A stretch of DNA of 64,000 nt from Alphaproteobacteria bacterium (GTDB lineage: Bacteria; Pseudomonadota; Alphaproteobacteria; Micavibrionales; Micavibrionaceae): contig NVTV01000002.1 of assembly GCA_002401695.1 (NCBI GenBank), positions 434,001 through 498,000 on the forward strand, in the 5' to 3' direction. The notes under the pieces are model-generated. The model was not told the DNA's origin, searched no databases, and saw only the letters and a list, made by a program, of their open reading frames with translations. Below, piece by piece: positions 11,394-24,394 of this stretch. The translations under genes and the position numbers were made by a program. Each line of letters opens with the position of its first letter. Within the stretch, counting starts at the first letter, position 1.

Positions 11394-12824
11394 TTATCCA
11401 GAGTAATACATATCGACTTCAACGGGATGTACCATTGTTTCGTATCGTTCAATTTCCTGTATTTTCAAAGCGATGAATGTTTCGATCAAGTCGTGTGTGA
11501 ATACATCCCCCTTTAATAGAAAATCATGGTCGTCACTCAATTCATCAAGAGCCTCCATCAAAGAGCCACAGAGTTGCGGAACTTTAAGCTGCTCTTCATT
11601 TGAAAGTGCGTAGATGTCTGTATCCGTCGCATCACCAGGGTGGATTTTATTCTCTATGCCATCCAAGCCGGCCATTAACATTGCAGAAAATGCTAGATAA
11701 GGGTTCGCTAATGGATCCGGAAAACGTACTTCAATACGGCGTTCCTTGGGGGCGTTCGTATGCGGGATACGGCATGCCGCCGATCTGTTTAAAGCAGAGT
11801 AGGTCAGTGATACGGGGGCTTCGAATCCTGTGATAAGTCGTTTATAACTGTTTGTTGTCGGGTTGGTAAAGGCGTTAAGCGCGCGTGCATGTTTCAAGAT
11901 GCCACCAATATAATAGAGCGCAGTTTCTGATAAATCAGCATACCCTTTACCAGCAAACAGAGGCTTACCCGACTTCCATAAGGATTGATGCACATGCATG
12001 CCGGAGCCATTATCACCATTAATCGGCTTGGGCATAAATGTTGCGGTCTTGCCATAGCTGTGTGCAACGTTATGTACCGCGTGTTTATACAGCTGTACGT
12101 TATCGGCGGCTTCTAATAATGAAGCGAACTTGATGCCAAGCTCACATTGCGCGGGGGCAACCTCATGATGATGCTTCTCCACGGGAACGCCCATGCTTTC
12201 AATAACGGTCAGCATTTCTGCTCTGATATCAGACAGGCTATCAACCGGACTTTCGGGCAAATACCCGCCTTTAGGCTGCGGACGGTGGCCCATATTACCT
12301 GTTGGGTAATCGCGGCCTTTGTTATACGCGCCTTCTTCACTGTCCAGCATATAAGATACGTGGTTTGTCTCTGTATGAATTTTAATATCATCGAAAATAA
12401 AGAATTCCGGCTCCGGTCCGAAATAGGCCGTGTCGCCCAGTTTCGACTTCCTTAAATAGCTTTCTGCTGCTTTGGCAACGGATCGTGGATCACGGTTATA
12501 GGGCTTCTTTGTTGCAGGCTCGTAAATGTCACAAAATATCTTGATTGTTTTTTGTGCGGCAAAAGGGTCATACGTGACGCGTGCAATATCCGGCTTGATA
12601 ATCATGTCGGATTTATGAATATCAGACCATCCGGCAATAGACGAGCCATCAAAACTGGCACCATTTTCTATCAGTTCTTTTGTAAATGCACTGGCATGTT
12701 GTGTTGTATGTTGCCATTTTCCGCGGATATCTGTGAAATTAAGATCAATGAATTGAATATCCTGTTCTTCAATGTATTTCAGAATTTCTGCAGGAGATTT
12801 AAATGACAATGCATATTTATTCAC
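11394..12824 (-). CDS. glnA: Type I glutamine synthetase
   Basis: The enzyme makes glutamine from glutamate, ammonia and ATP. The 476-residue length and the motifs fit type I: FDGSSIAGW near residue 60, the metal/glutamate-binding FGPEPEFFIFDD, HHEVAPAQCELG, the ATP-site NGSGMHVHQS, SYKRLITGFEAPV and the adenylylation-loop region TDIYALSNEE with its Tyr. The loop differs from the common NLYDLPPEE form, so regulation by adenylylation is likely but not certain. In many alphaproteobacteria glnB lies immediately upstream of glnA. Here no glnB is found; tRNA-His lies upstream on the opposite strand. Confidence 0.95.
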   Translation of the reverse strand: MNKYALSFKSPAEILKYIEEQDIQFIDLNFTDIRGKWQHTTQHASAFTKELIENGASFDGSSIAGWSDIHKSDMIIKPDIARVTYDPFAAQKTIKIFCDIYEPATKKPYNRDPRSVAKAAESYLRKSKLGDTAYFGPEPEFFIFDDIKIHTETNHVSYMLDSEEGAYNKGRDYPTGNMGHRPQPKGGYLPESPVDSLSDIRAEMLTVIESMGVPVEKHHHEVAPAQCELGIKFASLLEAADNVQLYKHAVHNVAHSYGKTATFMPKPINGDNGSGMHVHQSLWKSGKPLFAGKGYADLSETALYYIGGILKHARALNAFTNPTTNSYKRLITGFEAPVSLTYSALNRSAACRIPHTNAPKERRIEVRFPDPLANPYLAFSAMLMAGLDGIENKIHPGDATDTDIYALSNEEQLKVPQLCGSLMEALDELSDDHDFLLKGDVFTHDLIETFIALKIQEIERYETMVHPVEVDMYYSG

Positions 12825-12920
12825 GTGAAAACTTTCTTCTTATATAACCTAGTTCAAGTTCTACCATGGAGGAATTAGTGCGACAAGTTCTGATTGTTGT
12901 AGAATTTGTTTATAATATCC

Positions 12921-12948
12921 TTGACCAGAGTGGATGATATATTATAGA
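12921..12948 (+). promoter_or_regulatory. Probable sigma-70 promoter of tRNA-His
   Basis: TTGACC (12921-12926) and TATAGA (12943-12948) are separated by 16 bases. The tRNA begins 20 bases further on, which fits a short 5' leader. The match is good by eye, but no transcript data are available. Confidence 0.5.
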
Positions 12949-12967
12949 CAATACTACCTGTTCTTGT

Positions 12968-13044
12968 GGCGGTCGTAGCTCAGTTGGTAGAGCCCTCGGT
13001 TGTGATCCGAGTGGTCGCGGGTTCAAATCCCGTCGATCGCCCCA
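12968..13044 (+). tRNA. tRNA-His (GTG anticodon)
   Basis: The 77-base gene folds as a cloverleaf. The acceptor stem GCGGTCG pairs with CGATCGC, with the extra G-1 that is diagnostic of tRNA-His facing C73. It has the D-arm GCTCAGTTGGTAGAGC, an anticodon loop TTGTGAT containing GTG, the T-arm GCGGGTTCAAATCCCGT and an encoded CCA. Its last 26 bases are repeated twice downstream as part of a tandem array. Confidence 0.95.
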
Positions 13045-13354
13045 TTTCCTCCATGTTTATGTATCTTAGAAATATTTGCCACGAGTGCGGTGGAGCCCAC
13101 CCGCGTTTATTAAAGGTATTCGCGGGAGCGAATAGGGTTCAAATCCCGTCGATCGCCCCATTTCCCTCATGTTTGTGTATCTTAGAAATATTTACCACGA
13201 GTGCGGTGGAGCCCACCCGCGTTTATTAAAGGTATTCGCGGGAGCGAATAGGGTTCAAATCCCGTCGATCGCTCCATTTTCCCCATGTTTAGATATCTGA
13301 AGAATGTTTGCCGCCAGCGCGGTGGAGTCTGCTCGCATGCATTAAACGACTTTC
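13019..13354 (+). repeat. 116-bp tandem repeat carrying the 3' end of tRNA-His (two near-identical units plus one degenerate unit)
   Basis: Unit 1 (13019-13134) begins inside tRNA-His at the T-arm GGGTTC. Unit 2 (13135-13250) differs from it at only four visible positions. Unit 3 starts at 13251 and is degenerate, and homology fades around 13354. Each unit holds the T-arm, acceptor 3' strand and CCA (or TCCA), then about 90 bases of spacer. In units 1 and 2 the spacer carries a CCCGCG/CGCGGG inverted pair that could form a hairpin just before the next T-arm. The layout resembles the E. coli tyrT locus, where 178-bp repeats contain the 3' end of tRNA-Tyr and give rtT RNA. The 116-bp period is not a multiple of three, so a repeated coding function is unlikely. 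Confidence 0.9.
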
Positions 13355-13386
13355 GCTTTTTGAATGGTTTCGTTACACTCACTTTT

Positions 13387-14259
13387 ATGAAGAATGAACC
13401 GTCCTTATGGATTGAAAATTTCCCATCGCCACAAGCCAATGATCATAAATACAATCGTGGTCAAGTTGCTGTTCTTGGCGGCGTGGATATGACAGGTGCA
13501 GCGTGCCTTTCCGCTGAATCTGCTGCGCGTATAGGGGCAGGGGTCGTCACGATTATCAGCCCACATCTGACAGTGTTCCAAAGAATGAAAATACTTGATC
13601 CATTGTTGGTTTATAGGGCGTTTAAGCCTTATATCATCGCACGCAATGATATTTCGATGAATGATTTTGTTAAAAAGGCAAAGCTTAAAGGCTGTGTCTG
13701 TCCGGTGATTGGCCCGGGGCTGGGTGATAAAGAGTATTCTGTTGCGCGTTCTATTGTTTTGTCTGTATTGGATCAAGGTGTGCCAATCGTTTTAGATGCG
13801 GATGGGTTGAATGCATTTGAAGGGCATCAGGGTTCTCTGTGGGCGCATACGCATGAAAATGTTGTCTTAACGCCGCATGATGGCGAATTTAAAAAGCTAT
13901 TTCCGGGTGTTTTAAAAGAGGATCGTGCGGTGGCTGCCATAGAGGCCGCAAAAATCTCTAATTCTATTATCGTGTTAAAAGGTGCTAACAGCATCATTGC
14001 TGCGCCTGATGGAGAGGCCGTTGTGAATAATAACGCCTTACCTTATCTCGCAACGGCTGGATCGGGGGATGTTTTATCGGGTATGATTGCAGGGCTGGTG
14101 TCGCAAGGTATGCCAGCGTTTGAGGCCGCATGTGCCGCAGTTTGGATACATGGTCGAGCCTCGGAAATAATTGGCTGTGGGCTTGTTGCAAGTGATATCA
14201 TCGAAATAATTCCAAAAATTTTAAAAGAAATACTTGGAATTCGTGAAAAACTAGGGTAG
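13387..14259 (+). CDS. nnrD: ADP-dependent NAD(P)H-hydrate dehydratase, dehydratase domain only
   Basis: The enzyme repairs hydrated NAD(P)H. The YjeF C-terminal (ribokinase-like) fold is shown by ARIGAGVVTIISP, VIGPGLGDKE, VLDADGLNAFEG, LTPHDGEFKKLF and the signature ATAGSGDVLSGMIAGL near the end. The 290-residue form has no YjeF N-terminal epimerase domain, whereas the usual bacterial protein is a two-domain fusion of about 500 residues. The open frame extends up to 13285, but those extra residues lie mostly in the degenerate third tRNA-tail repeat. The ATG at 13387 (KNEPSLWIENF) is therefore preferred. An NnrE epimerase would have to be encoded elsewhere. Confidence 0.88.
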   Translation: MKNEPSLWIENFPSPQANDHKYNRGQVAVLGGVDMTGAACLSAESAARIGAGVVTIISPHLTVFQRMKILDPLLVYRAFKPYIIARNDISMNDFVKKAKLKGCVCPVIGPGLGDKEYSVARSIVLSVLDQGVPIVLDADGLNAFEGHQGSLWAHTHENVVLTPHDGEFKKLFPGVLKEDRAVAAIEAAKISNSIIVLKGANSIIAAPDGEAVVNNNALPYLATAGSGDVLSGMIAGLVSQGMPAFEAACAAVWIHGRASEIIGCGLVASDIIEIIPKILKEILGIREKLG

Positions 14260-14303
14260 AAACGCGCATTAAGTTCGAATGAGGGCTTACGATATATACC
14301 TGT

Positions 14304-14389
14304 GCGGATGTGGCGAAATTGGTAGACGCGCTAGATTTAGGTTCTAGTTTCCTTTGGAAGTGGGGGTTCAAGTCCCTTCATCCGCACCA
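14304..14389 (+). tRNA. tRNA-Leu (TAG anticodon)
   Basis: The 86-base class II tRNA has the acceptor GCGGATG pairing with CATCCGC, the anticodon stem-loop CTAGA-TTTAGGT-TCTAG with anticodon TAG, a long variable arm (TTTCCTTTGGAAGT) and an encoded CCA. It reads CUN leucine codons. It lies between nnrD and tig and is followed closely by a hairpin with a T-run. Confidence 0.95.
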
Positions 14390-14400
14390 TTTTAAAATTT

Positions 14401-14427
14401 AAGCCGAATGATACGGCTTTTTTTTTC
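14401..14427 (+). terminator. Rho-independent terminator after tRNA-Leu
   Basis: AAGCCG (14401-14406) pairs with CGGCTT (14414-14419) around a seven-base loop and runs into nine T residues. It lies 11 bases after the tRNA 3' end, so tig needs its own promoter in the short gap that follows. Confidence 0.85.
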
Positions 14428-14473
14428 ATTAGAATTTTTAGATTATAAACAGACATAAGAGAAGAGCATCACA

Positions 14474-15934
14474 ATGCAAGTAAAACAGCTTAAGCAAGAC
14501 GGTCTAAACCATGAACTTGAAGTGACTGTGGGCGCAGATGAAATCGCGAACCATGTCGATACACGCTTATCAGAGTTGAGCAAGACAGTTAAAATACCGG
14601 GTTTCCGCCCAGGTAAAGTGCCGATGTCTCTTATGAAACAAAAATACGGTAAGGCCGTTATGGGCGAAGTGCTTGAAAGCGCAGTGAATGACAGTTCGCT
14701 ACAAGCAATGAAGGATCAAGAGATCACACCGGCATTACAGCCAAAAATCGAAGTTAAATCCTTTGATGAAGGCAAAGACCTTATTTACACAATGAACATT
14801 GAAGTTCTTCCGAAAATAAAAATTAAAGATTACAAAGGCTTTAAGCTAACCAAACAGGTTGCAAAAGCAGATGACGCAGCAATTGATGAAGCATTAGGGC
14901 GCATTACCTCTATGCGTAAATCAAGCAAGCCAATTGAAGGTAAACGCGCGGCAAAATCCGGCGATACTGTTGTAATTGATTTTGATGGCCGCACGGCTGA
15001 TGATGATGTGAAGCAACCGGGTATGGCTGCAGAAGGTCATAACTTAGAGCTTGGTAGTAATTCATTCATTCCAGGTTTTGAAGAGCAACTTGTTGGCAAA
15101 AAAGCCGGTGATAAAGTTGAAGTCAAAGTTCAGTTCCCCGAAGAATACGGTTCTGCGGAGCTTGCAGGGCGTGATGCAATTTTTGATGTTGAAATTCACG
15201 AAATCCGTGAAACCGTTGACGCAGAAATTGATGATGAATTCGCAAAATCTTTAGGTATGGATGATTTGGAAGCCCTTCGTAAAGCCGTCGCCGAGCAAAC
15301 AAACCAAGAGTTCGACAGCCATAGTCGCCTGAAGTTGAAAAAAGAATTATTGGATCAACTTGATGAAGGACATCAGTTTGAAATCCCACAAGGCATGAAG
15401 GATTTAGAATTACAAAACATCCTTCAACAAGTGAAAATGGATAACCAACAACGCGGCGTTGATGAAGAGCCAACAGAAGAAGAAACAGCCGAGCTGACAG
15501 ACATCGCAGGTCGCCGTGTTCGTCTAGGTCTTGTTTTGTCCGAAATTGGTAAAGAGAACAACATTCAGGTTGCAGATGCAGAATTGCAAAAAGCTGTAAT
15601 CACCGAAGCCCAGAAATATCCGGGTCAGGAAAAAGAAGTTTTCGATTACTTTGCGAAAAACCGTGAAGCATTAGAATCACTTCGTGCGCCGATTTATGAG
15701 GACAAGGTCGTTGATTTCATTCTTGAACTGGCAACAGTAACGGAAAAAGAAGTCACGGTTGAAGAACTGACAGCCGATGAAGATGCAGATGACGCGCCAA
15801 AGGCAAAGAAAAAGCCGGCGGCGAAAAAGAAGGCTGCACCAAAGAAAGATGACAAAGCATCTGACGACAAGCCTGCGGCCAAAAAGGCGCCTGCTGAGAA
15901 GAAAAAAGCGGCTCCTAAGAAAAAAGCATCTTAG
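14474..15934 (+). CDS. tig: Trigger factor with Lys/Ala-rich C-terminal tail
   Basis: Trigger factor is the ribosome-bound chaperone and prolyl isomerase that meets nascent chains at the exit tunnel. The 486-residue protein has the ribosome-docking signature IPGFRPGKVP (about residues 38-47), an FKBP-like PPIase domain with GDTVVIDFDGR and ELGSNSFIPGFEEQL, and an alpha-helical chaperone C-domain. The last 45 residues or so are a basic Lys/Ala/Pro tail that is not part of the core fold and resembles histone H1-like tails. The gene is monocistronic by appearance: a terminator precedes it and a hairpin follows it. Confidence 0.97.
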   Translation: MQVKQLKQDGLNHELEVTVGADEIANHVDTRLSELSKTVKIPGFRPGKVPMSLMKQKYGKAVMGEVLESAVNDSSLQAMKDQEITPALQPKIEVKSFDEGKDLIYTMNIEVLPKIKIKDYKGFKLTKQVAKADDAAIDEALGRITSMRKSSKPIEGKRAAKSGDTVVIDFDGRTADDDVKQPGMAAEGHNLELGSNSFIPGFEEQLVGKKAGDKVEVKVQFPEEYGSAELAGRDAIFDVEIHEIRETVDAEIDDEFAKSLGMDDLEALRKAVAEQTNQEFDSHSRLKLKKELLDQLDEGHQFEIPQGMKDLELQNILQQVKMDNQQRGVDEEPTEEETAELTDIAGRRVRLGLVLSEIGKENNIQVADAELQKAVITEAQKYPGQEKEVFDYFAKNREALESLRAPIYEDKVVDFILELATVTEKEVTVEELTADEDADDAPKAKKKPAAKKKAAPKKDDKASDDKPAAKKAPAEKKKAAPKKKAS

Positions 15935-15964
15935 TAGAAATAAAATATTTATATAAAATTCTTG

Positions 15965-15998
15965 AACAAGCCGTGCACAGTGGGTACGGTTTGTTTTG
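15965..15998 (+). terminator. Probable terminator of tig
   Basis: AACAAGCCGT (15965-15974) pairs fully, with one G-U, with ACGGTTTGTT (15986-15995) across an 11-base loop. The following T-tract is short (TTTTG), so termination may be partial. Confidence 0.55.
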
Positions 15999-16001
15999 AC
16001 T

Positions 16002-16032
16002 CTTGCGTTTGGGCGTGTGAGTCGTATTCAAT
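16002..16032 (+). promoter_or_regulatory. Candidate heat-shock (RpoH-type) promoter of clpP
   Basis: CTTGCG at 16002 is followed, 17 bases after the CTTG core, by CGTATTCAATCG. This resembles the alphaproteobacterial sigma-32 pattern CTTG-N17-CYTATNT, allowing one mismatch. clpP is a classic heat-shock gene and begins about 35 bases later. The match is visual and not unique. Confidence 0.3.
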
Positions 16033-16067
16033 CGAATAACCCTGTAATTTAGAAACTGTGAGCAAAT

Positions 16068-16715
16068 ATGTTTGATTCAAATCCAATTGATACCTATATG
16101 AACCATCTTGTCCCGACTGTGATTGAGCAGACGAACCGCGGGGAGCGTGCATTCGATATCTATTCGAGACTATTGAAGGAGCGTATTATCTTTCTGACAG
16201 GCGAAGTGAATGACTATGTGTCTTCCGTGATCTGTGCGCAGTTCTTGTTTTTGGAATCAGAAAATCCGAATAAAGAGATTTCCTTTTATATTAACTCTCC
16301 GGGCGGCGTTGTTACAGCTGGCTTGGCGATGTATGACACCATGCAATATATCCGCCCTAAGATTTCAACCGTATGTGTAGGGCAGGCGGCGTCTATGGGC
16401 TCTCTCTTGCTTATGGCGGGGGAAGAGGGGCTGCGTTATTCTTTGCCGAACTCACGGATTATGATTCACCAACCTTCGGGCGGTGCGCGTGGGCAGGCCA
16501 CTGATATTGAAATCCAAGCGAAAGAAATTTTACGTTTACGTCAAAGCTTGAACGATATCTATGTAAAACATACAGGCCAAAAATTGAAGGTTGTGGAAGA
16601 AGCAATGGATCGCGATAACTTCATGAGCGCGCAAGAAGCCAAAGACTGGGGGCTTATCGATCACGTCGTTGAATCAAAGCCTGTTCCGGACGATGAAGAT
16701 GATAAGAAAAAATAA
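16068..16715 (+). CDS. clpP: ATP-dependent Clp protease proteolytic subunit
   Basis: ClpP forms the 14-mer serine protease chamber used by ClpX or ClpA. The catalytic triad can be placed by spacing as Ser109 (QAASMGS), His134 (IMIHQPSGG) and Asp183 (DRDNFMSA), with the same 25- and 49-residue intervals as E. coli. The 215-residue length is typical and the acidic C-terminal tail (PDDEDDKKK) is ordinary. clpX is usually adjacent but is absent here; lon follows directly after 176 bases. Confidence 0.97.
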
Positions 16716-16891
16716 ACTTTTATCTGCGTAATATAGAAACGTTGATATTTTGCATTCTTCTTTTTATAGCTTTTGCTTGTATATTAAGAATGCTTTCAAC
16801 ATTATCAGCGTAGAATGGATGAAAATGCCTTTAAAACGGCACTTTCTCCTGTATATAGTAGACGCGTTATTGAAATGTAAGGACTTATTGA

Positions 16892-19303
16892 ATGTCAGAT
16901 ACAAAGAACACTCCATATGCTGTTCTCCCCCTAAGAGATATCGTTGTTTTCCCACATATGATTGTACCGCTTTTTGTTGGACGGGATAAGTCTGTTCAGG
17001 CGCTAGAGCATGTAATGCATGCCGATAAGAAAATTGTTCTGGTTACGCAAAAAACGCCATCGGAAGATGATCCTGGGCCGGAGGATCTCTATTCCGTCGG
17101 AACAATGGGCACGATTCTTCAGCTTCTGAAATTACCTGACGGAACAGTTAAGGTTCTTGTCGAGGGCGGCGCGCGCGTTCGCCTTTCTAAGTTGGTGGAT
17201 AAAAATGGTTATATTGAAGCCAATATAACGGACATTGTTGATACGACTGTTGGCGATGAAGAGTTGGAAGCGCTATCTCGCGCCGCAATGACGCAGTTTG
17301 AGCAATATGTGAAGCTGAACAAAAAAATACCACCAGAGGTTATTGTCTCGATTAACCAAATTGATGAACCATCTAAAATGGTTGATACCATTGCGTCTCA
17401 CTTGGCATTGAAAATCGACCAAAAGCAGGATTTGCTCGAACTCGCCACAACAGCCGAGCGGTTGGAGCGTATCTATTCCTTTATGGAAGGGGAGATCGGC
17501 GTTCTTCAAGTTGAAAAACGTGTGCGCAGCCGTGTGAAACGCCAAATGGAAAAGACGCAGCGCGAATATTATTTGAACGAACAAATGAAAGCGATCCAAA
17601 AAGAGCTTGGCGACGGTGAAGACGGCCTTGATGAATTGGGTGAGCTGGATAAGAAAATCGAAGAAACCAAGATGCCTAAGGAAGTGCGCGAGCGTTCCAA
17701 AGCAGAAATGAAAAAACTTCGCCAGATGAGCCCTATGTCCGCAGAGGCCACAGTGGTGCGTAACTATCTTGACTGGATTTTATGTGTGCCGTGGCATAAG
17801 AAATCTCGCGTGAAGAAAGATATAAAAGCCGCGCAAGCGATCCTCGATAAAGATCACTACGGCTTGGAAAAAGTTAAAGAACGTATATTGGAATATCTCG
17901 CGGTTCAGCAGCGTACGAAAAAAGTGCGCGGTACGATCCTTTGTTTGGCAGGGCCGCCGGGTGTTGGTAAAACATCTTTGGGTAAATCCATTGCCAGAGC
18001 AACAAACCGTAATTTTGTGCGCATGTCTTTGGGCGGCGTTCGTGACGAGAGCGAAATTCGCGGTCATCGCCGCACTTATATTGGTGCGATGCCGGGAAAA
18101 ATCATTCAAGGTATGAAAAAAGCGAAGACCGTTAACCCTCTATTCTTGCTGGATGAGATTGATAAACTTGGCTCTGATTTCCGCGGCGACCCTAGCTCCG
18201 CATTGCTGGAAGTTCTCGATCCGGAACAAAATGATAAGTTCCAAGATCACTATTTGGAAATGGACTTTGATTTGTCCGATGTGATGTTTGTGTGTACGGC
18301 GAATAATATTTCAAATATGTCACGTCCATTGCTGGATCGTATGGAAATCATTCGTATCTCTGGCTATACCGAGGATGAAAAAGTTCAAATCGCAAGACGC
18401 CATTTGTTGAAAAAGCAAATGAAAATGGCAGGACTAAAGCGTGATGAATTTACCATTAGTGATACAGCTATCCGTGATCTTATCCGCTATTACACACGCG
18501 AAGCGGGTGTCCGTGGATTAGAGCGTGAGCTGGCAAATCTTTGTCGTAAAGCGATTAAAGATATATTGATGAAGGGGAAGGAGAAAATCTCTATCACCCC
18601 GCGTGGCCTTGAAAAATATGCAGGTGTTAAAAAATGTCGTTATGGTGAAATTGAAGAATTTGACCGCGTTGGCGTGGTTAATGGCTTGGCCTATACGGAA
18701 AGTGGTGGCGATTTATTGTCCATCGAGGCTGTGACAATGCCGGGTAAAGACTGTAAAGTTTCAACAACTGGTAACTTAAAAGACGTCATGCGGGAATCTA
18801 TTACCGTGGCGGAGATGTTAACCAAATCTCGTGCGGCACAATATGGTCTGGATTATGAAATCCTGAAGAAACAGCAAGTCCACGTGCATGTTCCGGAAGG
18901 GGCCACGCCCAAAGACGGGCCATCTGCTGGCGCGGCGATGGTAACGGCAATTATATCTGCATTATCGGGCATTGAGATTCGTAGAGATATCGCGATGACA
19001 GGTGAAGTGAACTTGCGTGGTAATGTTACGGCAATCGGTGGTTTAAAAGAAAAACTGCTGGCGGCGCTTCGCGGAGGCATAAAAACAGTACTGATTCCCC
19101 AAGATAATGAGAAAGATTTAGCCGATATTCCGAAAAATGTTCTCAAAGGTTTGAAGATTATTCCCGTTAGAACCATTGATGAGGTGCTTTCACACGCCCT
19201 TTTACACATGCCGGAACCTCTGGAATCACTAAAAAATGGAGAATTAGACAAAATTTCGTCAGAAACTGCAGAAAACAAGGGAGAAAGAGTGATTCACCAT
19301 TGA
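16892..19303 (+). CDS. lon: ATP-dependent protease La (Lon)
   Basis: The 803-residue protein has the N-terminal substrate-binding LON domain, a AAA+ module with Walker A GPPGVGKTSLGKS and Walker B LFLLDEIDKLG, and the C-terminal protease domain. The catalytic dyad is Ser678 (KDGPSAGAAM) and Lys721 (GGLKEKLL), spaced 43 residues apart as in E. coli Lon. It degrades misfolded proteins and short-lived regulators in the cytoplasm. The 176-base gap after clpP contains a TATATA (16852-16857) that could be the -10 element of a separate promoter. Confidence 0.98.
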   Translation: MSDTKNTPYAVLPLRDIVVFPHMIVPLFVGRDKSVQALEHVMHADKKIVLVTQKTPSEDDPGPEDLYSVGTMGTILQLLKLPDGTVKVLVEGGARVRLSKLVDKNGYIEANITDIVDTTVGDEELEALSRAAMTQFEQYVKLNKKIPPEVIVSINQIDEPSKMVDTIASHLALKIDQKQDLLELATTAERLERIYSFMEGEIGVLQVEKRVRSRVKRQMEKTQREYYLNEQMKAIQKELGDGEDGLDELGELDKKIEETKMPKEVRERSKAEMKKLRQMSPMSAEATVVRNYLDWILCVPWHKKSRVKKDIKAAQAILDKDHYGLEKVKERILEYLAVQQRTKKVRGTILCLAGPPGVGKTSLGKSIARATNRNFVRMSLGGVRDESEIRGHRRTYIGAMPGKIIQGMKKAKTVNPLFLLDEIDKLGSDFRGDPSSALLEVLDPEQNDKFQDHYLEMDFDLSDVMFVCTANNISNMSRPLLDRMEIIRISGYTEDEKVQIARRHLLKKQMKMAGLKRDEFTISDTAIRDLIRYYTREAGVRGLERELANLCRKAIKDILMKGKEKISITPRGLEKYAGVKKCRYGEIEEFDRVGVVNGLAYTESGGDLLSIEAVTMPGKDCKVSTTGNLKDVMRESITVAEMLTKSRAAQYGLDYEILKKQQVHVHVPEGATPKDGPSAGAAMVTAIISALSGIEIRRDIAMTGEVNLRGNVTAIGGLKEKLLAALRGGIKTVLIPQDNEKDLADIPKNVLKGLKIIPVRTIDEVLSHALLHMPEPLESLKNGELDKISSETAENKGERVIHH

Positions 19304-19473
19304 ACCTTTTGCGAAAAAGGCTTACAAAGGAATCACTTAAAATGATTGCAACCGCGCACTGGGTAAGTGTTTCGCATTTTATTATGTATTTTGGTTTCAG
19401 TCGTTTTCAGACTGCCTGCGGAATGGTTTCGGGGGCAGTATGGCTTTTAACTTAAACGTAAAGGGAATTCCTT

Positions 19474-19761
19474 ATGAACAAGCAAGATCTTGTATCAAAA
19501 GTAGCTGCTTCTGCAGATATGTCTAAACAAAAAGCAGCATCCGCTGTTGACGCCGTTATTGACGCAATCAAAGGCAGCCTTAAAGTTGGTGAAGATGTTC
19601 GTCTAGTAGGTTTTGGTACTTTTTCAGTATCCGACCGCGCTGCGACAACTGGCCGTAACCCACGCACTGGTGAGCCAATTCAAATTCCGGCTTCTAAGCA
19701 ACCTAAATTCAAAGCTGGTAAAGAGCTTAAAGAAGCTGTAAACGGTAAGAAAAAGAAGTAA
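19474..19761 (+). CDS. hupB: DNA-binding protein HU
   Basis: This 95-residue nucleoid protein has the HU fold, with N-terminal helices, [18 protein letters not shown] forming the saddle strand and DNA-binding arm, and a basic C-terminus (NGKKKK). The [15 protein letters not shown] arm contains the intercalating Pro. It dimerises and bends DNA. It sits downstream of lon as in many proteobacteria and is followed by a strong terminator. Confidence 0.97.
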
Positions 19762-19791
19762 TTCTGCCTTTTCAGATTTATAAATATTATG

Positions 19792-19830
19792 TTTGGCCGC
19801 CCTTATTATATGTGCGGCCGAATTTTTTTT
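19792..19830 (+). terminator. Rho-independent terminator after hupB
   Basis: TTTGGCCGC (19792-19800) pairs with GCGGCCGAA (19814-19822, one G-U) and is followed by eight T residues. It lies 30 bases after the hupB stop. Confidence 0.9.
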
Positions 19831-19850
19831 ATAAATATTGAATTCTGTTC

Positions 19851-19879
19851 TTGCTTTTTGTCGCGGGACTTATTAGATA
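19851..19879 (+). promoter_or_regulatory. Probable promoter of tRNA-Val
   Basis: TTGCTT (19851-19856), a 17-base spacer and TAGATA (19874-19879) lie 18 bases before the tRNA. The -35 match is good and the -10 is moderate. Confidence 0.4.
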
Positions 19880-19897
19880 TATGCCATCGATTGGTTA

Positions 19898-19973
19898 GGG
19901 TGATTAGCTCAGCTGGGAGAGCATCTCGTTTACACCGAGAGGGTCGGCGGTTCGATCCCGTCATCACCCACCA
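19898..19973 (+). tRNA. tRNA-Val (TAC anticodon)
   Basis: The 76-base gene has the acceptor GGGTGAT/ATCACCC, the D-arm GCTCAGCTGGGAGAGC, an anticodon stem TCTCG/CGAGA with loop TTTACAC (anticodon TAC), the T-arm GGCGGTTCGATCCCGTC and an encoded CCA. No tRNA-tail repeat is visible downstream, in contrast to tRNA-His. Confidence 0.95.
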
Positions 19974-20016
19974 ATCGCTTCTTTCCCTTATTTGTAAAAT
20001 GTTTCGACGAGCCTGT

Positions 20017-20265
20017 CTAAATGCTTGGAGTCGTGATTTTTGTTCGTTCTTCTATGATCTCATTCGATATACGTATGATGGCTCGTTCTCTGATGGCAAG
20101 CTCTTCAAGTTGGGTGCAATCTTGTACTTCCGCATCGCTTAATGCGTCTGGGCCATATAAGGCGTCGCTTGTACTGTCGAAGGTTTCTTGTAAGGCAATA
20201 TCGCTTAACGATTCCAGTTCTTGGCGAAGCTTATTGTCGTCAATATTAAAGGTTTCTCGTGCCAT
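20017..20265 (-). CDS. Small acidic protein of unknown function
   Basis: The 82-residue product (ARETFNIDDNKLRQELESL...) is acidic and predicted mostly alpha-helical, with no membrane segment and no Cys motif. It starts at ATG 20265, reads towards tRNA-Val, and has an AGACGGAA stretch as a weak ribosome-binding site. I do not recognise it. It is divergent from the nuoA region, so the 180 bases between them probably hold promoters for both directions. Confidence 0.5.
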   Translation of the reverse strand: MARETFNIDDNKLRQELESLSDIALQETFDSTSDALYGPDALSDAEVQDCTQLEELAIRERAIIRISNEIIEERTKITTPSI

Positions 20266-20347
20266 TTTTATTCCGTCTCTATTCTGTGTGTGTCCAGATT
20301 ACACTGTTGGTGAAACAATGCAAAATTGTCGCGTAATAAATTGTTGT

Positions 20348-20627
20348 TTTCTTATAAAAAAAATGAAAACATCGGTTAAGGGTGTTTTCAACGTGCCTAT
20401 AAGCTGTTAGAGCTTAGAAGAAGAATCGTCTTGAAAGAATAACACTTATGGCGCCGCAAGAATTACTCATTGAATACCTTCCCATCCTCGTCTTTATAGC
20501 CATCGCCGGAGGCATGTCTGTGGCGATGATTGCCGGATCTATTTTGGCCGGTGTGCGTAAGCCTGATGCGGAGAAATTATCTGTCTATGAATGTGGGTTT
20601 GATGCATTTTCGGATGTGCGCGGTAAG
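20348..20627 (+). repeat. Direct repeat, copy 1: upstream region and first 60 codons of nuoA
   Basis: This stretch matches 23312-23593. The first 120 coding bases are almost identical between copies, while the leader and the distal codons differ more, mostly at silent positions. After codon 60 (RGK) the copy loses all similarity to nuoA. The repeats bracket the acyltransferase/esterase pair. Confidence 0.9.
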
Positions 20628-20669
20628 GAAATACAAACAATGATCGGGGCGCTATCAGTTGTTGGATAA
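20448..20669 (+). pseudogene. Truncated duplicate of nuoA
   Basis: The first 60 residues repeat those of the intact NuoA at 23414 with three substitutions (DAEKLSV for DPEKLSA, and DV for DA). The frame then passes into 13 unrelated residues (EIQTMIGALSVVG) and stops. It keeps only the first of the three NuoA transmembrane helices, so it cannot work as a complex I subunit. The upstream leader is also duplicated, so it may still be transcribed and could drive the acyltransferase genes just downstream. Confidence 0.9.
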
Positions 20670-20706
20670 ACCCCCATTTATGCCGAAGCTTGTGCGTTAA
20701 TATTTT

Positions 20707-22200
20707 ATGTTATTTAACTCTCAAATTTTTATTTATGGATTTTTGCCCATTGTTTTGGCGGTCTATGTCCTTTGGGGGCGTCGCTCGATCAAGCAACAGA
20801 GGGGTAATCTTGCCGTTGTATTCTTGGTGCTTGCGTCACTGTTCTTTTATGGATGCTGGAATGTGCATTATTTGGCACTGATCGTGCCGCTCACGGTTGT
20901 TAATTTTTATTTTGGGTATCTGCTTTCAGTGACACGCTCGCGGTGGTTGCTTGTCTTCGCACTTGGATTCAATCTTCTGGTGCTGGCTTATTTTAAATAT
21001 GCGGAGTTTTTGACGCATAATGTCTTGCAACCACTCGGTTTTGGATGGGATGCAGGCACTGTTGTTCTGCCGCTTGGAATTTCGTTCTTTATTTTTCAGA
21101 TCATTGCCTATCTGGTTGATTCCTATAAGGGGGAAGTCAGGGATAAACGGTTTTGGCATTTCAGTTTATTTGTGACGTTCTTTCCGCAACTGGTTGCCGG
21201 TCCTATTGTGCATCATAAGGATATTATCCCGCAGTTTGATAAAGTTCAAATGCGTTCATTTCTGGATAATTTAACGGTTGGTTTGACTATTTTTATTTTC
21301 GGCCTGTTTAAAAAAGTCATTTTAGCAGATGGTGTTGCGGAATATTCGACGCCGGTTTTCGAGGCCGCTGCGCATGGCGAGGTTCTGGGCTTTGCGGATG
21401 CTTGGGGGGCGGCGCTGGCTTTTACGCTTCAGATTTATTTTGATTTTTCGGGGTATTCCGATATGGCTGTTGGCTTGGCGCGGATGTTTGGTATTGTGCT
21501 GCCGCTTAACTTCTTTTCACCGTATCAGGCGGGCAGTATTGTTGAGTTTTGGCGGCGATGGCATATGACACTTTCATGTTTTTTGCGGGATTATCTTTAT
21601 ATCCCACTTGGCGGGAATAGGGGCGGGCGCTGGAAACAACTCAGGAACTTGATGGTGACGATGTTGCTCGGCGGTCTGTGGCATGGTGCGGCGTGGACGT
21701 TCGTTGTTTGGGGCGCGTTGCATGGTGTATATTTGGTCATTAACCACATGTGGCAGCGCATGTTCGCATCTTCGGTGGCACAGGTGACGGGCGGCGCGCG
21801 GTATCTGGTGCGTGGCGGCGGGTGGTTGGTGACATTTATGGCTGTTGTTATCGCTTGGGTTGTCTTTCGGGCCGATAATTTGGGTGTTGCACTTCATATG
21901 CTGGAAAGCATGGCCGGCTTGCATGGTGTAAGTGTTTTGCAGGACGGCAATCCTTATTTCTACGGGGCGGCGCAAGTTGTGTTTACGGGGGGCTTGTTGC
22001 TGATCGTATTATTTGCCCCGAATTCAATGACGATTATGCGCAGTTATCGCCCTGCTCTTTGGACCGATGCGCATAAATCTGTGGTCGGACCCTTTCAATG
22101 GAAGCCAAATTTGAGGTGGGCTTTTATTGTTGGAGGGATGGCGGTTGCTGCGTTAATATCGTTGAATAATCCCAACGAATTTCTTTATTTTAATTTTTAG
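20707..22200 (+). CDS. MBOAT-family membrane O-acyltransferase (AlgI/DltB-like)
   Basis: The 497-residue multi-pass protein has about 10-12 hydrophobic segments and the family signature: FSGYSDMAVGLARMFGIVLP, SPYQAGSIVEFWRRWHMTLS, FLRDYLYIPLGGNRGG and the catalytic-His segment LLGGLWHGAAWTFVVWG. AlgI, PatA and DltB relatives carry acyl groups across the membrane for O-acetylation of exopolysaccharide or peptidoglycan, or for D-alanylation. The next gene, an SGNH protein, is the normal partner in such systems. The coding sequence looks more G-rich than the nuo genes around it, and it lies between the two nuoA copies, which suggests acquisition. Confidence 0.92.
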   Translation: MLFNSQIFIYGFLPIVLAVYVLWGRRSIKQQRGNLAVVFLVLASLFFYGCWNVHYLALIVPLTVVNFYFGYLLSVTRSRWLLVFALGFNLLVLAYFKYAEFLTHNVLQPLGFGWDAGTVVLPLGISFFIFQIIAYLVDSYKGEVRDKRFWHFSLFVTFFPQLVAGPIVHHKDIIPQFDKVQMRSFLDNLTVGLTIFIFGLFKKVILADGVAEYSTPVFEAAAHGEVLGFADAWGAALAFTLQIYFDFSGYSDMAVGLARMFGIVLPLNFFSPYQAGSIVEFWRRWHMTLSCFLRDYLYIPLGGNRGGRWKQLRNLMVTMLLGGLWHGAAWTFVVWGALHGVYLVINHMWQRMFASSVAQVTGGARYLVRGGGWLVTFMAVVIAWVVFRADNLGVALHMLESMAGLHGVSVLQDGNPYFYGAAQVVFTGGLLLIVLFAPNSMTIMRSYRPALWTDAHKSVVGPFQWKPNLRWAFIVGGMAVAALISLNNPNEFLYFNF

Positions 22201-22209
22201 GCTCCGCAC

Positions 22210-23172
22210 ATGACAAAGCGTTATTTAGTTTCACTTTTTCTGGTTATATGTTTGGCACTTCTGTGCTCTGAAATTGTGATCCGTGGTTATGTTATGACGT
22301 ATCATCGGCTCGCGCAACAGGTTTACACGATTTTGAACGAGGATAAAGCCGGCGTTATTATCGGCGATTCACATACAAAGGCTGCCTTCACCAATTTACC
22401 GGAAAACTTCGCCAATCTTTCGGTTGAGGGGATGAATGTGTTGATGTTTGATTCGGTCGTGCGTTCTTATGCCTCGCGCAATAGAATTGAAAAAATCATC
22501 ATTCTGGCCAGTCCGCATATTTTTTCACAATATCGCATTGATGGTAACGTGGGGATTTATGCGAGTCTGCCTGTGCGGGCGTTGGATTGGCGGGATGATA
22601 TTTATGTGTTTAACAATGTGTATCAGGCGGCGCTCCATGACACTGTGAAGTGGAAAATTCTGAATGTGCTGCAAGCCAAAAATCCGATTGGGCTTTTGAA
22701 AACGCGGGTGATGCAGGCCCTGCACCTATCACCGCCGCGTGTAAAGGCGGAGGAGCAACGGAGGGGGCGTGTGCTGTGGGCTGAGCAGTCCATGAGCCAG
22801 AAAACAGAGAAAACCGTGCGGCAATTGCGGGATCATGCGCCGGCGGAGGATTTTCAGAACCATATGTTCGCAATCCGGTATAAAGAGATGATTTCTAACC
22901 TGATGAATTCCGGTGCGCAAATCTGTCTTGTGCGTCCGCCCGTGTCGGAAATATATAACCGGATATATGCTGATAAATTTTCAATGGCCCCGATGGAACG
23001 TTTTTTTGAGGGAATTGTTAAGGATGAAGGGCGCGGCGGTCACATTAAATATGTGGATTACAGGGATTTGGGGATATCATTTGCGGATGATGTTCTCATA
23101 AACACAGATCATTTGAACGAGCAGGGCGCGCAGATCTATACTCCCGCGATCATGAAGGCGTGCTTTGGATAG
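22210..23172 (+). CDS. SGNH/GDSL-like membrane-anchored protein, partner of the MBOAT acyltransferase
   Basis: The 320-residue protein has an N-terminal anchor (YLVSLFLVICLALLCSEIVI) and a periplasmic domain with the block I motif IIGDSHTKAAF, an FANLSVEGMN segment at the block II position, and a C-terminal NTDHLNEQGAQ that would give the catalytic Asp/His. This matches the AlgJ/AlgX/DltD-type proteins that complete acyl transfer to an extracellular polymer. It starts nine bases after the MBOAT gene, so the two are likely translated from one mRNA. The polymer that is modified is not known. Confidence 0.75.
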   Translation: MTKRYLVSLFLVICLALLCSEIVIRGYVMTYHRLAQQVYTILNEDKAGVIIGDSHTKAAFTNLPENFANLSVEGMNVLMFDSVVRSYASRNRIEKIIILASPHIFSQYRIDGNVGIYASLPVRALDWRDDIYVFNNVYQAALHDTVKWKILNVLQAKNPIGLLKTRVMQALHLSPPRVKAEEQRRGRVLWAEQSMSQKTEKTVRQLRDHAPAEDFQNHMFAIRYKEMISNLMNSGAQICLVRPPVSEIYNRIYADKFSMAPMERFFEGIVKDEGRGGHIKYVDYRDLGISFADDVLINTDHLNEQGAQIYTPAIMKACFG

Positions 23173-23201
23173 CGATGTGCAGGACGAATATATGCCCCTA
23201 G

Positions 23202-23369
23202 CCCCCTGATTGGCATGGGTATATCGAAAGTGAAAAATCTATTCACGCAGGTCTGCCCCCTAATCCTGAATGGGAAGCGCTTCTTGTCTCTTATGTGGCT
23301 CTATGGGGCGATTTTCTTGTTAAAAATATTGAAAAACATCGGTTAAGGGTATTTTCAACGCGTCTATAA
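23202..23369 (+). pseudogene. Possible gene remnant without a start codon
   Basis: An open frame of 55 codons follows a TAG and reads PPDWHGYIESEK, then LPPNPEWEALLVSY and WGDFLVKNIEKHR before TAA at 23367. It has protein-like composition but no ATG, GTG or TTG near its beginning, so it looks like the tail of a gene cut by rearrangement. It runs across the left edge of the second nuoA repeat. The family is not recognised and the frame could be chance. Confidence 0.3.
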
Positions 23370-23593
23370 GCTGTTAGAACTTAGGATAAGAATCGTCTTG
23401 AAAGAATATGCTTATGGCGCCGCAAGAATTACTCATTGAATACCTTCCCATCCTCGTCTTTATAGCCATCGCCGGAGGCATGTCTGTCGCGATGATTGCC
23501 GGATCTATTTTGGCCGGTGTACGTAAGCCTGATCCTGAAAAGCTGTCTGCCTATGAATGTGGTTTTGATGCGTTTTCTGATGCGCGTGGCAAA
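23312..23593 (+). repeat. Direct repeat, copy 2: upstream region and first 60 codons of nuoA
   Basis: This copy is continuous with the functional nuoA. It matches 20348-20627, and the two copies are offset by 2,966 bases measured at the shared ATG. See the truncated copy for the pattern of divergence. Confidence 0.9.
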
Positions 23594-23785
23594 TTTGATG
23601 TGCGTTTTTATCTGGTCACATTATTATTCATTATTTTTGATTTAGAGATCGCATTTTTATTCCCATGGGCTATAACTCTTGGCAAAATTGGTGTCTTTGG
23701 TTTCTGGTCTATGATTGTCTTTCTTTCTGTTCTGACTGTTGGTTTTGTCTATGAATGGAAAAAGGGCGGACTTGAGTGGGAATGA
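23414..23785 (+). CDS. nuoA: NADH-quinone oxidoreductase subunit A
   Basis: NuoA is a small membrane subunit of complex I near the quinone site. The protein has three transmembrane helices, the loop [21 protein letters not shown] that carries the conserved Cys, and the acidic [10 protein letters not shown] helix. The ATG at 23414 is chosen over 23408 because the duplicated leader at 20448 conserves only the former. It is the first gene of the nuo cluster and is followed by nuoB after 33 bases. Confidence 0.97.
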
Positions 23786-23818
23786 AGAAGCGGGAATTAA
23801 GGGTAAGAGAGCTGTAAT

Positions 23819-24394
23819 ATGAGCCACGATAAAAAAATTATAACCGCGCCGAACTATATGCAGGAAGCGCGCGCGCCTTTTCCACCAGCGTTAGAGCAGG
23901 ATATTGTGCCTGCCGCGATTTCAAAAACGCTTGATGAAAAAGGCTTTCTTCTGACAAATACAGATAAGCTGTTCGATTGGGCACGGACAGGATCGCTTTG
24001 GCCGATGACCTTCGGTTTGGCTTGCTGCGCGGTGGAAATGATCCACGGGTATATGAGTCGCTATGACCTTGATCGCTTCGGTATTATTCCACGCCCCAGC
24101 CCGCGCCAATCCGATGTTATGATTGTGGCTGGGACACTGACCAATAAAATGGCGCCTGCGCTGCGTCGTGTTTATGACCAGATGCCAGAGCCGCGTTGGG
24201 TTGTTTCTATGGGCTCGTGCGCGAATGGCGGCGGGTATTATCATTACTCCTATTCTGTCGTGCGTGGGTGCGATCGTATTGTGCCTGTGGATATCTATAT
24301 TCCCGGTTGTCCACCAACGGCAGAGGCTATGATTTATGGTCTGATGCAGCTTCAAAAGAAAATTCAAAGAGAGGATACCCGCATTGCCCGATGA
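23819..24394 (+). CDS. nuoB: NADH-quinone oxidoreductase subunit B (cluster N2)
   Basis: The 191-residue subunit holds the terminal 4Fe-4S cluster N2 that reduces quinone. Its four ligands are visible as the tandem Cys pair in [13 protein letters not shown], the Cys in [11 protein letters not shown] and the Cys in [11 protein letters not shown]. The fold and length are standard. Its last 11 bases overlap the start of nuoC, which suggests translational coupling. Confidence 0.98.

Follow-up and report, generated by a model that had tools for sequence, protein, structure and literature searches.

A truncated and an intact nuoA flank an MBOAT-SGNH gene pair in a Micavibrionaceae genome: probable scar of a gene transfer between related bacteria

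RESULTS

Structure of the duplicated nuoA region

In the stretch of 64,000 nucleotides (nt) analyzed here (the window; contig NVTV01000002.1 of assembly GCA_002401695.1, Micavibrionaceae), to which coordinates refer unless stated otherwise, the 5' region of the respiratory gene nuoA is present twice, and the two copies enclose a gene pair (the cassette) that encodes a membrane O-acyltransferase of the MBOAT family and a partner of the SGNH type. We consider this locus to be most probably the scar of one horizontal-transfer event, in which a crossover took place in the nuoA 5' region with DNA of a related strain. The repeated block of 261 bp consists of the nuoA leader and 60 codons and lies at 20366-20626 and 23333-23592, and the joint alignment of both blocks contains 24 differences in 261 columns, one of which is a 1-nt gap. 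The repeat search returned the block as two segments in register, i.e., 20366-20441/23333-23408 (76 nt, 92% identity) and 20445-20626/23411-23592 (182 nt, 92% identity). With a 14-nt seed, the only other direct repeat of at least 60 nt in the window is a tandem array of 116-nt units at 13.0 kb; thus, the nuoA repeat is not a product of chance.

The left open reading frame (ORF) encodes 73 residues, namely NuoA residues 1 to 60 and an unrelated tail of 13 residues before the stop codon that ends at 20669, and the fragment ends in sequence that is not repeated at the right copy. The right ORF encodes a complete NuoA (E = 2.7e-38) and is followed by nuoB; its true start is perhaps at 23414, where an ATG matches the start of the left copy. 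The locus therefore presents a direct repeat homologous to the target, with one copy truncated and the other intact, which is the pattern of a single-crossover insertion. The sequence-only reading of this region had described the duplication of the leader and the first 60 codons, the truncation of the left copy, the intact state of the right copy, and the MBOAT and SGNH genes between them, and the repeat, ORF, and family searches bear this description out.

Divergence between the two copies

The differences between the left (L) and right (R) copies are unevenly distributed, with 8 of 78 positions in the leader, 1 of 110 in the stretch 20445-20554, and 14 of 70 in the distal part. This map agrees with the earlier impression that the first 120 coding bases are almost identical and that the distal third has diverged mostly at silent sites. 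The longest run of identity between the copies is 77 nt (permutation p = 0.003), and the contrast between the middle stretch and its flanks gives a Fisher p value of 3e-5, with cut points that were chosen after the data had been seen. Relative to the nearest species, G004, the L copy differs at 8 of 77 positions in the leader, 6 of 110 in 20445-20554, and 12 of 70 in the distal part, and the R copy differs at 9 of 76, 6 of 110, and 14 of 70, respectively. Outside 20445-20554, the totals are 22/148 between L and R, 20/147 between L and G004, and 23/146 between R and G004; i.e., the two copies are about as far from each other as either is from the nearest species, and they thus look like two alleles joined by recombination. 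The coding differences are mostly silent, and the left 60 codons contain neither a stop nor a frameshift, which speaks against an old, useless duplicate.

The stretch 20445-20554, with its single difference, may be a stretch of exchange between the two alleles. The same stretch is also the most conserved part relative to G004 (p = 0.04 for L and p = 0.01 for R), so that an exchange is credited with only a part of the contrast between L and R.

Genes between the copies

The features of the locus are collected in Table 1.

Table 1. Features from tRNA-Val to the intact nuoA, in window coordinates
Feature	Position	Strand	Basis
tRNA-Val(tac), last conserved gene left of the insertion	19898..19973	+	ARAGORN; relatives
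Left nuoA leader copy	20366..20447	+	Repeat search; leader alignment
Truncated nuoA: 60 NuoA codons, 13 unrelated codons, stop	20448..20669	+	ORF, family search
MBOAT membrane O-acyltransferase (DltB/PatA/AlgI type), 497 residues	20707..22200	+	PF03062, motifs
SGNH-fold acyltransferase/esterase partner, 320 residues, N-terminal helix, GDS 52-54, DH 300-301	22210..23172	+	Alignment, model, fold matches
Stretch with short open frame, possible remnant, into right leader	23173..23332	+	Translation
Right nuoA leader copy	23333..23407	+	Repeat search; leader alignment
Intact nuoA, 125 residues, then nuoB	23408..23785	+	ORF, PF00507

The MBOAT protein matches its Pfam family with E = 2.9e-28 (99.6 bits), and its gene is the only MBOAT match found in the assembly. 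It contains a WHG motif at residues 325 to 327, the histidine of which would, by resemblance to published MBOATs, be the catalytic one, and its C-terminal FLYFNF (residues 492 to 497) fits the FXYXXF motif; a C terminus of this type was observed in 68 of the 70 scorable homologues from 80 named MBOAT loci, 10 of which have no scorable frame. The DltB family (TIGR04091) was not assigned, as the score of 176.9 bits is below the cut-off of 375. Matches to the protein are present in 14 of the 37 other genomes searched first, where the best match shares 39 to 51% identity in 13 genomes and 33% in one. At least 589 relatives were returned from genome contigs, the best 80 with 38 to 56% identity over the best segment, and PHROGs gave only a weak match (E = 0.094).

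The SGNH protein has no match to any Pfam or NCBIfam model. Gly52-Asp53-Ser54 and His301 are invariant in an alignment of five proteins; of the four besides the one described here, three (L104, L149, and L173) are encoded directly downstream of an MBOAT gene. Asp300 directly precedes His301 in four of the five, unlike the D-x-x-H spacing sought; a crude pattern applied to 55 ORFs that follow MBOAT genes gave a GDS-like motif in 19, DxxH in 7, and both in 1. The AlphaFold model has a pLDDT of 63, with residues 112 to 198 poor and the core better, and the core matches SGNH hydrolases and transferases, with Escherichia coli TesA first (Z = 14.5) and with Campylobacter jejuni PatB (8tlb; Z = 13.9) and OatA (6wn9; Z = 13.5) among the others. 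The comparison with DltD (6pfx) gave E = 1.4e-3; DltD and AlgX/AlgJ are absent among the VIA-align matches listed for the model, which excludes nothing. Taken together, the MBOAT and SGNH proteins carry the enzyme hallmarks of an envelope acyltransferase-type pair, for which acyl transfer is predicted from motifs and a model.

The SGNH protein was sought in 58 and then in 142 genomes of the order, and remote relatives were found in two of the 141 other genomes (G092, E = 8e-7; G093, E = 6e-5; 25 to 26% identity). A third relative, in G018 (L104), is encoded downstream of an MBOAT gene and was missed by the 142-genome search, so that the misses of this search are not proof of absence. The search of genome contigs returned 30 pattern stretches, none of which is a relative. 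No match was found on plasmids or phages at the protein level, and the cassette DNA has only partial matches to plasmids (38 records, 60 to 80% identity, the best covering 19%).

Between the SGNH gene and the right copy, an open frame runs from about 23202 into the right leader. Its best Pfam match (E = 0.14) is below the cut-off, and NCBIfam, PHROGs, and the PDB gave no match over the cut-off. The gene remnant suggested earlier is therefore weakly supported.

Leaders and predicted promoter

The left leader contains a promoter-like GTTTTC (20384-20389) separated by 17 nt from TTAGAG (20407-20412), and the right leader contains ATTTTC (23351-23356) separated by 17 nt from TTAGAA (23374-23379). 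When the nuoA leaders of 16 relatives were aligned with both copies, GTTTTC, a spacing of about 17 nt, and TTAAAA or TTAGAA were recognized by eye in most rows; the element is clearest in leaders of the same genus and is kept in both copies of the window. We infer from this conservation that the element would be the nuoA promoter. As the element is preserved on either side, transcription of the insert is probably possible with the nuo operon left intact.

Occurrence among relatives and neighborhood of nuoA

NuoA was sought in the same 142 genomes, which are species representatives, and 128 gave a match. An extra 5' piece of nuoA beside an intact nuoA was found only in the genome of the window (G000). 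More than one nuoA match is present in 6 of the 141 other genomes, and none of them is a second case: nuoA is interrupted by a scaffold gap of N in G118 and by a contig end in G100, two contig ends of G091 share 8.2 kb at 99.5% identity, G117 and G029 contain distant nuoA paralogues (43% and 40%, respectively), and G057 has two poor nuoA fragments. A recurrent break at nuoA codons 50 to 60, as suggested by G100 and G118, was dropped because both are assembly gaps. A PMC literature search gave no description of such a nuoA arrangement among the matches listed.

The nuoA loci of 33 relatives, several of them shortened by contig ends, were compared. tRNA-Asp is located upstream of nuoA in 22 of them, and in 13 of these 22 tRNA-Val lies further out; none has tRNA-Val directly before an intact nuoA, the arrangement that the sequence-only reading had named for comparison. 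The interval between tRNA-Val, tRNA-Asp, and nuoA varies among the relatives in length and content, and its commonest genes belong to two clusters of 17 and 9 members, which from the look of the sequences we take to be ald and ispG, respectively. In the genome of the window, an ispG-ald-tRNA-Asp block is located about 100 kb downstream on the same contig (L100 9566-12169; about 553.6-556.2 kb of C34, the contig of the window), and window positions 19973-20366 correspond to the place between tRNA-Val and nuoA where many relatives carry this block; hence, the tRNA-Val/nuoA junction has already been rearranged here. No MBOAT-SGNH cassette was found at the nuoA site in the 33 loci, which were searched with both proteins as queries.

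In G004, whose NuoA is 96% identical, a repeat of the tRNA-Val 3' end and an N-terminal integrase piece (Arm-DNA-bind_3, E = 7.9e-29) are located upstream of nuoA (L055 139-564 and 1116-1135). The tRNA-Val of G004 itself lies near the end of another contig (L138) and is followed by an open frame that by eye resembles the start of an integrase, and the two contigs are inferred to adjoin. These repeat and integrase pieces indicate that tRNA-Val is probably an integration site in these relatives. The insert of the window is bounded by nuoA sequence, not by tRNA sequence.

An antisense open frame of 82 residues (20017-20265, minus strand) lies between tRNA-Val and the left nuoA copy; it has no convincing family match and no match at E = 1e-4 in the 33 loci. 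The tandem array mentioned above (13019-13366; three 116-nt units) has its start within the 3' part of tRNA-His (12969-13044). A hairpin, ATTCGC-GGGA-GCGAAT, closes each of the first two units immediately ahead of the following tRNA tail, and a related spacer with the same hairpin is present in the relative G001 between two tRNA-Val 3' ends 115 nt apart (L140 944 and 1059). We take this array to resemble the rtT repeats that follow E. coli tyrT. A search of 12800-24000 with Rfam at gathering scores reported only tRNAs.

DISCUSSION

Origin of the insertion

In the proposed sequence of events, the incoming DNA would have carried the MBOAT-SGNH pair of a related strain next to a piece of nuoA and would have entered by recombination at the 5' region that it shared with the resident nuoA. 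The DNA may have been a circle with a truncated nuoA fragment that was integrated by a single Campbell-type crossover, or linear DNA with one homologous end, the other end being joined illegitimately inside the resident nuoA after codon 60. Either route would yield the observed order of a truncated nuoA, the insert, and, on the right, a complete nuoA preceded by a leader of its own. The sequence-only reading had proposed the integration of a circle; a crossover-type insertion that joins two alleles fits best, and the incoming DNA may have been a circle or linear with one illegitimate end. The genome encodes a ComEC-type competence protein. Its presence would be consistent with uptake of DNA, but such proteins are widespread among bacteria and are also encoded in 10 of 14 control genomes. 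After insertion, the left leader would drive the truncated nuoA together with the MBOAT and SGNH genes, and the right leader would keep nuo running. The MBOAT protein is predicted to charge the tyrosine in its C-terminal FLYFNF with an acyl group, which the SGNH protein would then pass on to a glycan of the envelope. Recombination by RecA between the two copies is expected to delete the insert now and then and to restore a single nuoA.

Several observations weigh against a transfer from a related strain. No donor with nuoA beside an MBOAT-SGNH cassette was found; a NuoA match is absent from the 80 named MBOAT loci and from 14 further MBOAT locus records of relatives. The GC content of the cassette (0.47) is like that of its neighbors (0.42 to 0.51), so that composition does not mark it as foreign. 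The limits of the middle stretch were picked post hoc, and its contrast of 1/110 between L and R with 6/110 between L and G004 is not significant (p = 0.12). Of the 24 positions that distinguish L from R, G004 agrees with L at 12, with R at 8, and with neither at 4, and because these matches are intermixed, neither copy can be named as native; of the earlier suggestion that a part of the left copy came from another strain, the allele-level divergence is upheld, and the assignment of individual sites to a native copy is not. A consensus promoter scan flags neither leader (8 found against 7.4 expected by chance), and the promoter claim thus rests on an alignment read by eye. A general sharing of the arrangement among relatives, which had been named as contrary evidence, is seen in none of the other genomes among the 142; as these are species representatives only, empty sites at strain level lie outside this sample.

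A tandem duplication of the nuoA 5' region in place, around genes that were already upstream, with subsequent divergence of the left copy, could also give one truncated and one intact copy, and would be in keeping with the lack of a known donor. We regard it as unlikely, since the cassette itself is single-copy and is found at this place in no relative among the 33 loci, and since a divergence of about 9%, mostly silent and free of stops and frameshifts, is unlike that of a useless drifting copy and sets L and R about as far apart as two species. Slightly less credence is given to an assembly artifact in which the nuoA regions of two strains were joined in one contig. The assembly consists of 34 contigs, is 94% complete, and, with 3.06 Mb, is larger than the 11 same-genus genomes searched (1.6 to 2.8 Mb); a mixture of strains could put two alleles into one contig, and G091, G100, and G118, which belong to the same order, also show contig overlaps or breaks in the region of nuoA. 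The locus, however, is inside a 563-kb contig, the window contains no N, the left fragment does not end in a shared repeat, where assemblers misjoin, the MBOAT and SGNH genes form a coherent two-gene unit, and the estimated contamination is 1.19%.

The explanation to which we attach the least probability is a dedicated mobile element or integrative island that targeted tRNA-Val or the 5' end of nuoA and regenerated its target; an element that regenerates its target had been considered in the sequence-only reading. The resemblance of tRNA-Val to an integration site in relatives, the repeat and integrase piece upstream of nuoA in G004, and 12 integrase-domain matches in the assembly, all on contigs other than C34, lend it some credit. 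Among the long ORFs between the copies, to which the scan was confined, only MBOAT and SGNH were found and no recombinase or transposase. A search of the window for the 25-nt 3' end of tRNA-Val, with a tolerance of up to three mismatches, gave a single occurrence, and none of the four inverted-repeat pairs found is at the borders; an integrase-driven genomic island and a transposon or insertion sequence were rejected on these grounds. The cassette, moreover, has no second copy in this genome, and the 142 genomes contain no second case and no close relative of the SGNH protein, which also has no match on plasmids or phages.

If the crossover with DNA of a related strain is accepted, the locus illustrates that a core operon can take up a gene pair at its head and stay intact, as the homologous stretch through which the DNA enters also provides a second promoter region and a second gene start. 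The insertion would equip the strain in a single step with the only acylation system of the MBOAT type that it has, and an easy reversal is predicted. A further idea, that the locus is a reversible switch in which the captured nuo promoter expresses the acylation pair and RecA-dependent deletion restores nuoA, giving on/off surface variants under respiratory control, is at present highly speculative.

Comparison with known systems

MBOAT-SGNH systems for envelope acylation include AlgI/AlgJ-AlgX. The pair described here shares with PatA/PatB and DltB/DltX/DltD the MBOAT protein with a conserved histidine and a C-terminal FXYXXF motif, which is described as an acyl-shuttle motif for PatA and DltX in PMC12148441. 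As with PatB, DltD, and OatA, the adjacent partner has a GDS motif, a conserved histidine, and the SGNH fold. In contrast to the Pat and Dlt systems, the SGNH partner is recognized by none of the Pfam or NCBIfam models, and the pair is situated between nuoA copies. The locus also recalls tRNA-anchored genomic islands, in that a variable interval starts at a tRNA that resembles an integration site in relatives; here, in contrast, the duplicated sequence is not a tRNA end but the 5' end of a protein gene, and no integrase was recognized among the long ORFs of the insert.

The closest parallels are Campbell-type insertion and homology-facilitated illegitimate recombination. In E. coli with a nonreplicating plasmid, as reported in PMC3240628, 56 of 60 recombinants of one class gave a polymerase chain reaction product of the duplicated target, and 14 that were sequenced had duplications of 109 to 950 bp, which were ascribed to a crossover with a circle lacking part of the homology; true homology-facilitated illegitimate recombination was rarer (4 of 60). 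The latter process has also been invoked for Vibrio gene arrays, according to PMC5361080, which is cited as background only. The locus in the window shares with the insertions of PMC3240628 a truncated and an intact target with foreign DNA between them and a duplication of a few hundred base pairs, and differs from them in being a natural event with an allele of about 9% divergence and without a recognized vector or replication gene. Most likely, the scar is of an ordinary kind, left when genes passed from one bacterium to a related one, and is unusually easy to read; the mechanism is already known and the outcome is instructive, being a natural counterpart of laboratory single-crossover integration.

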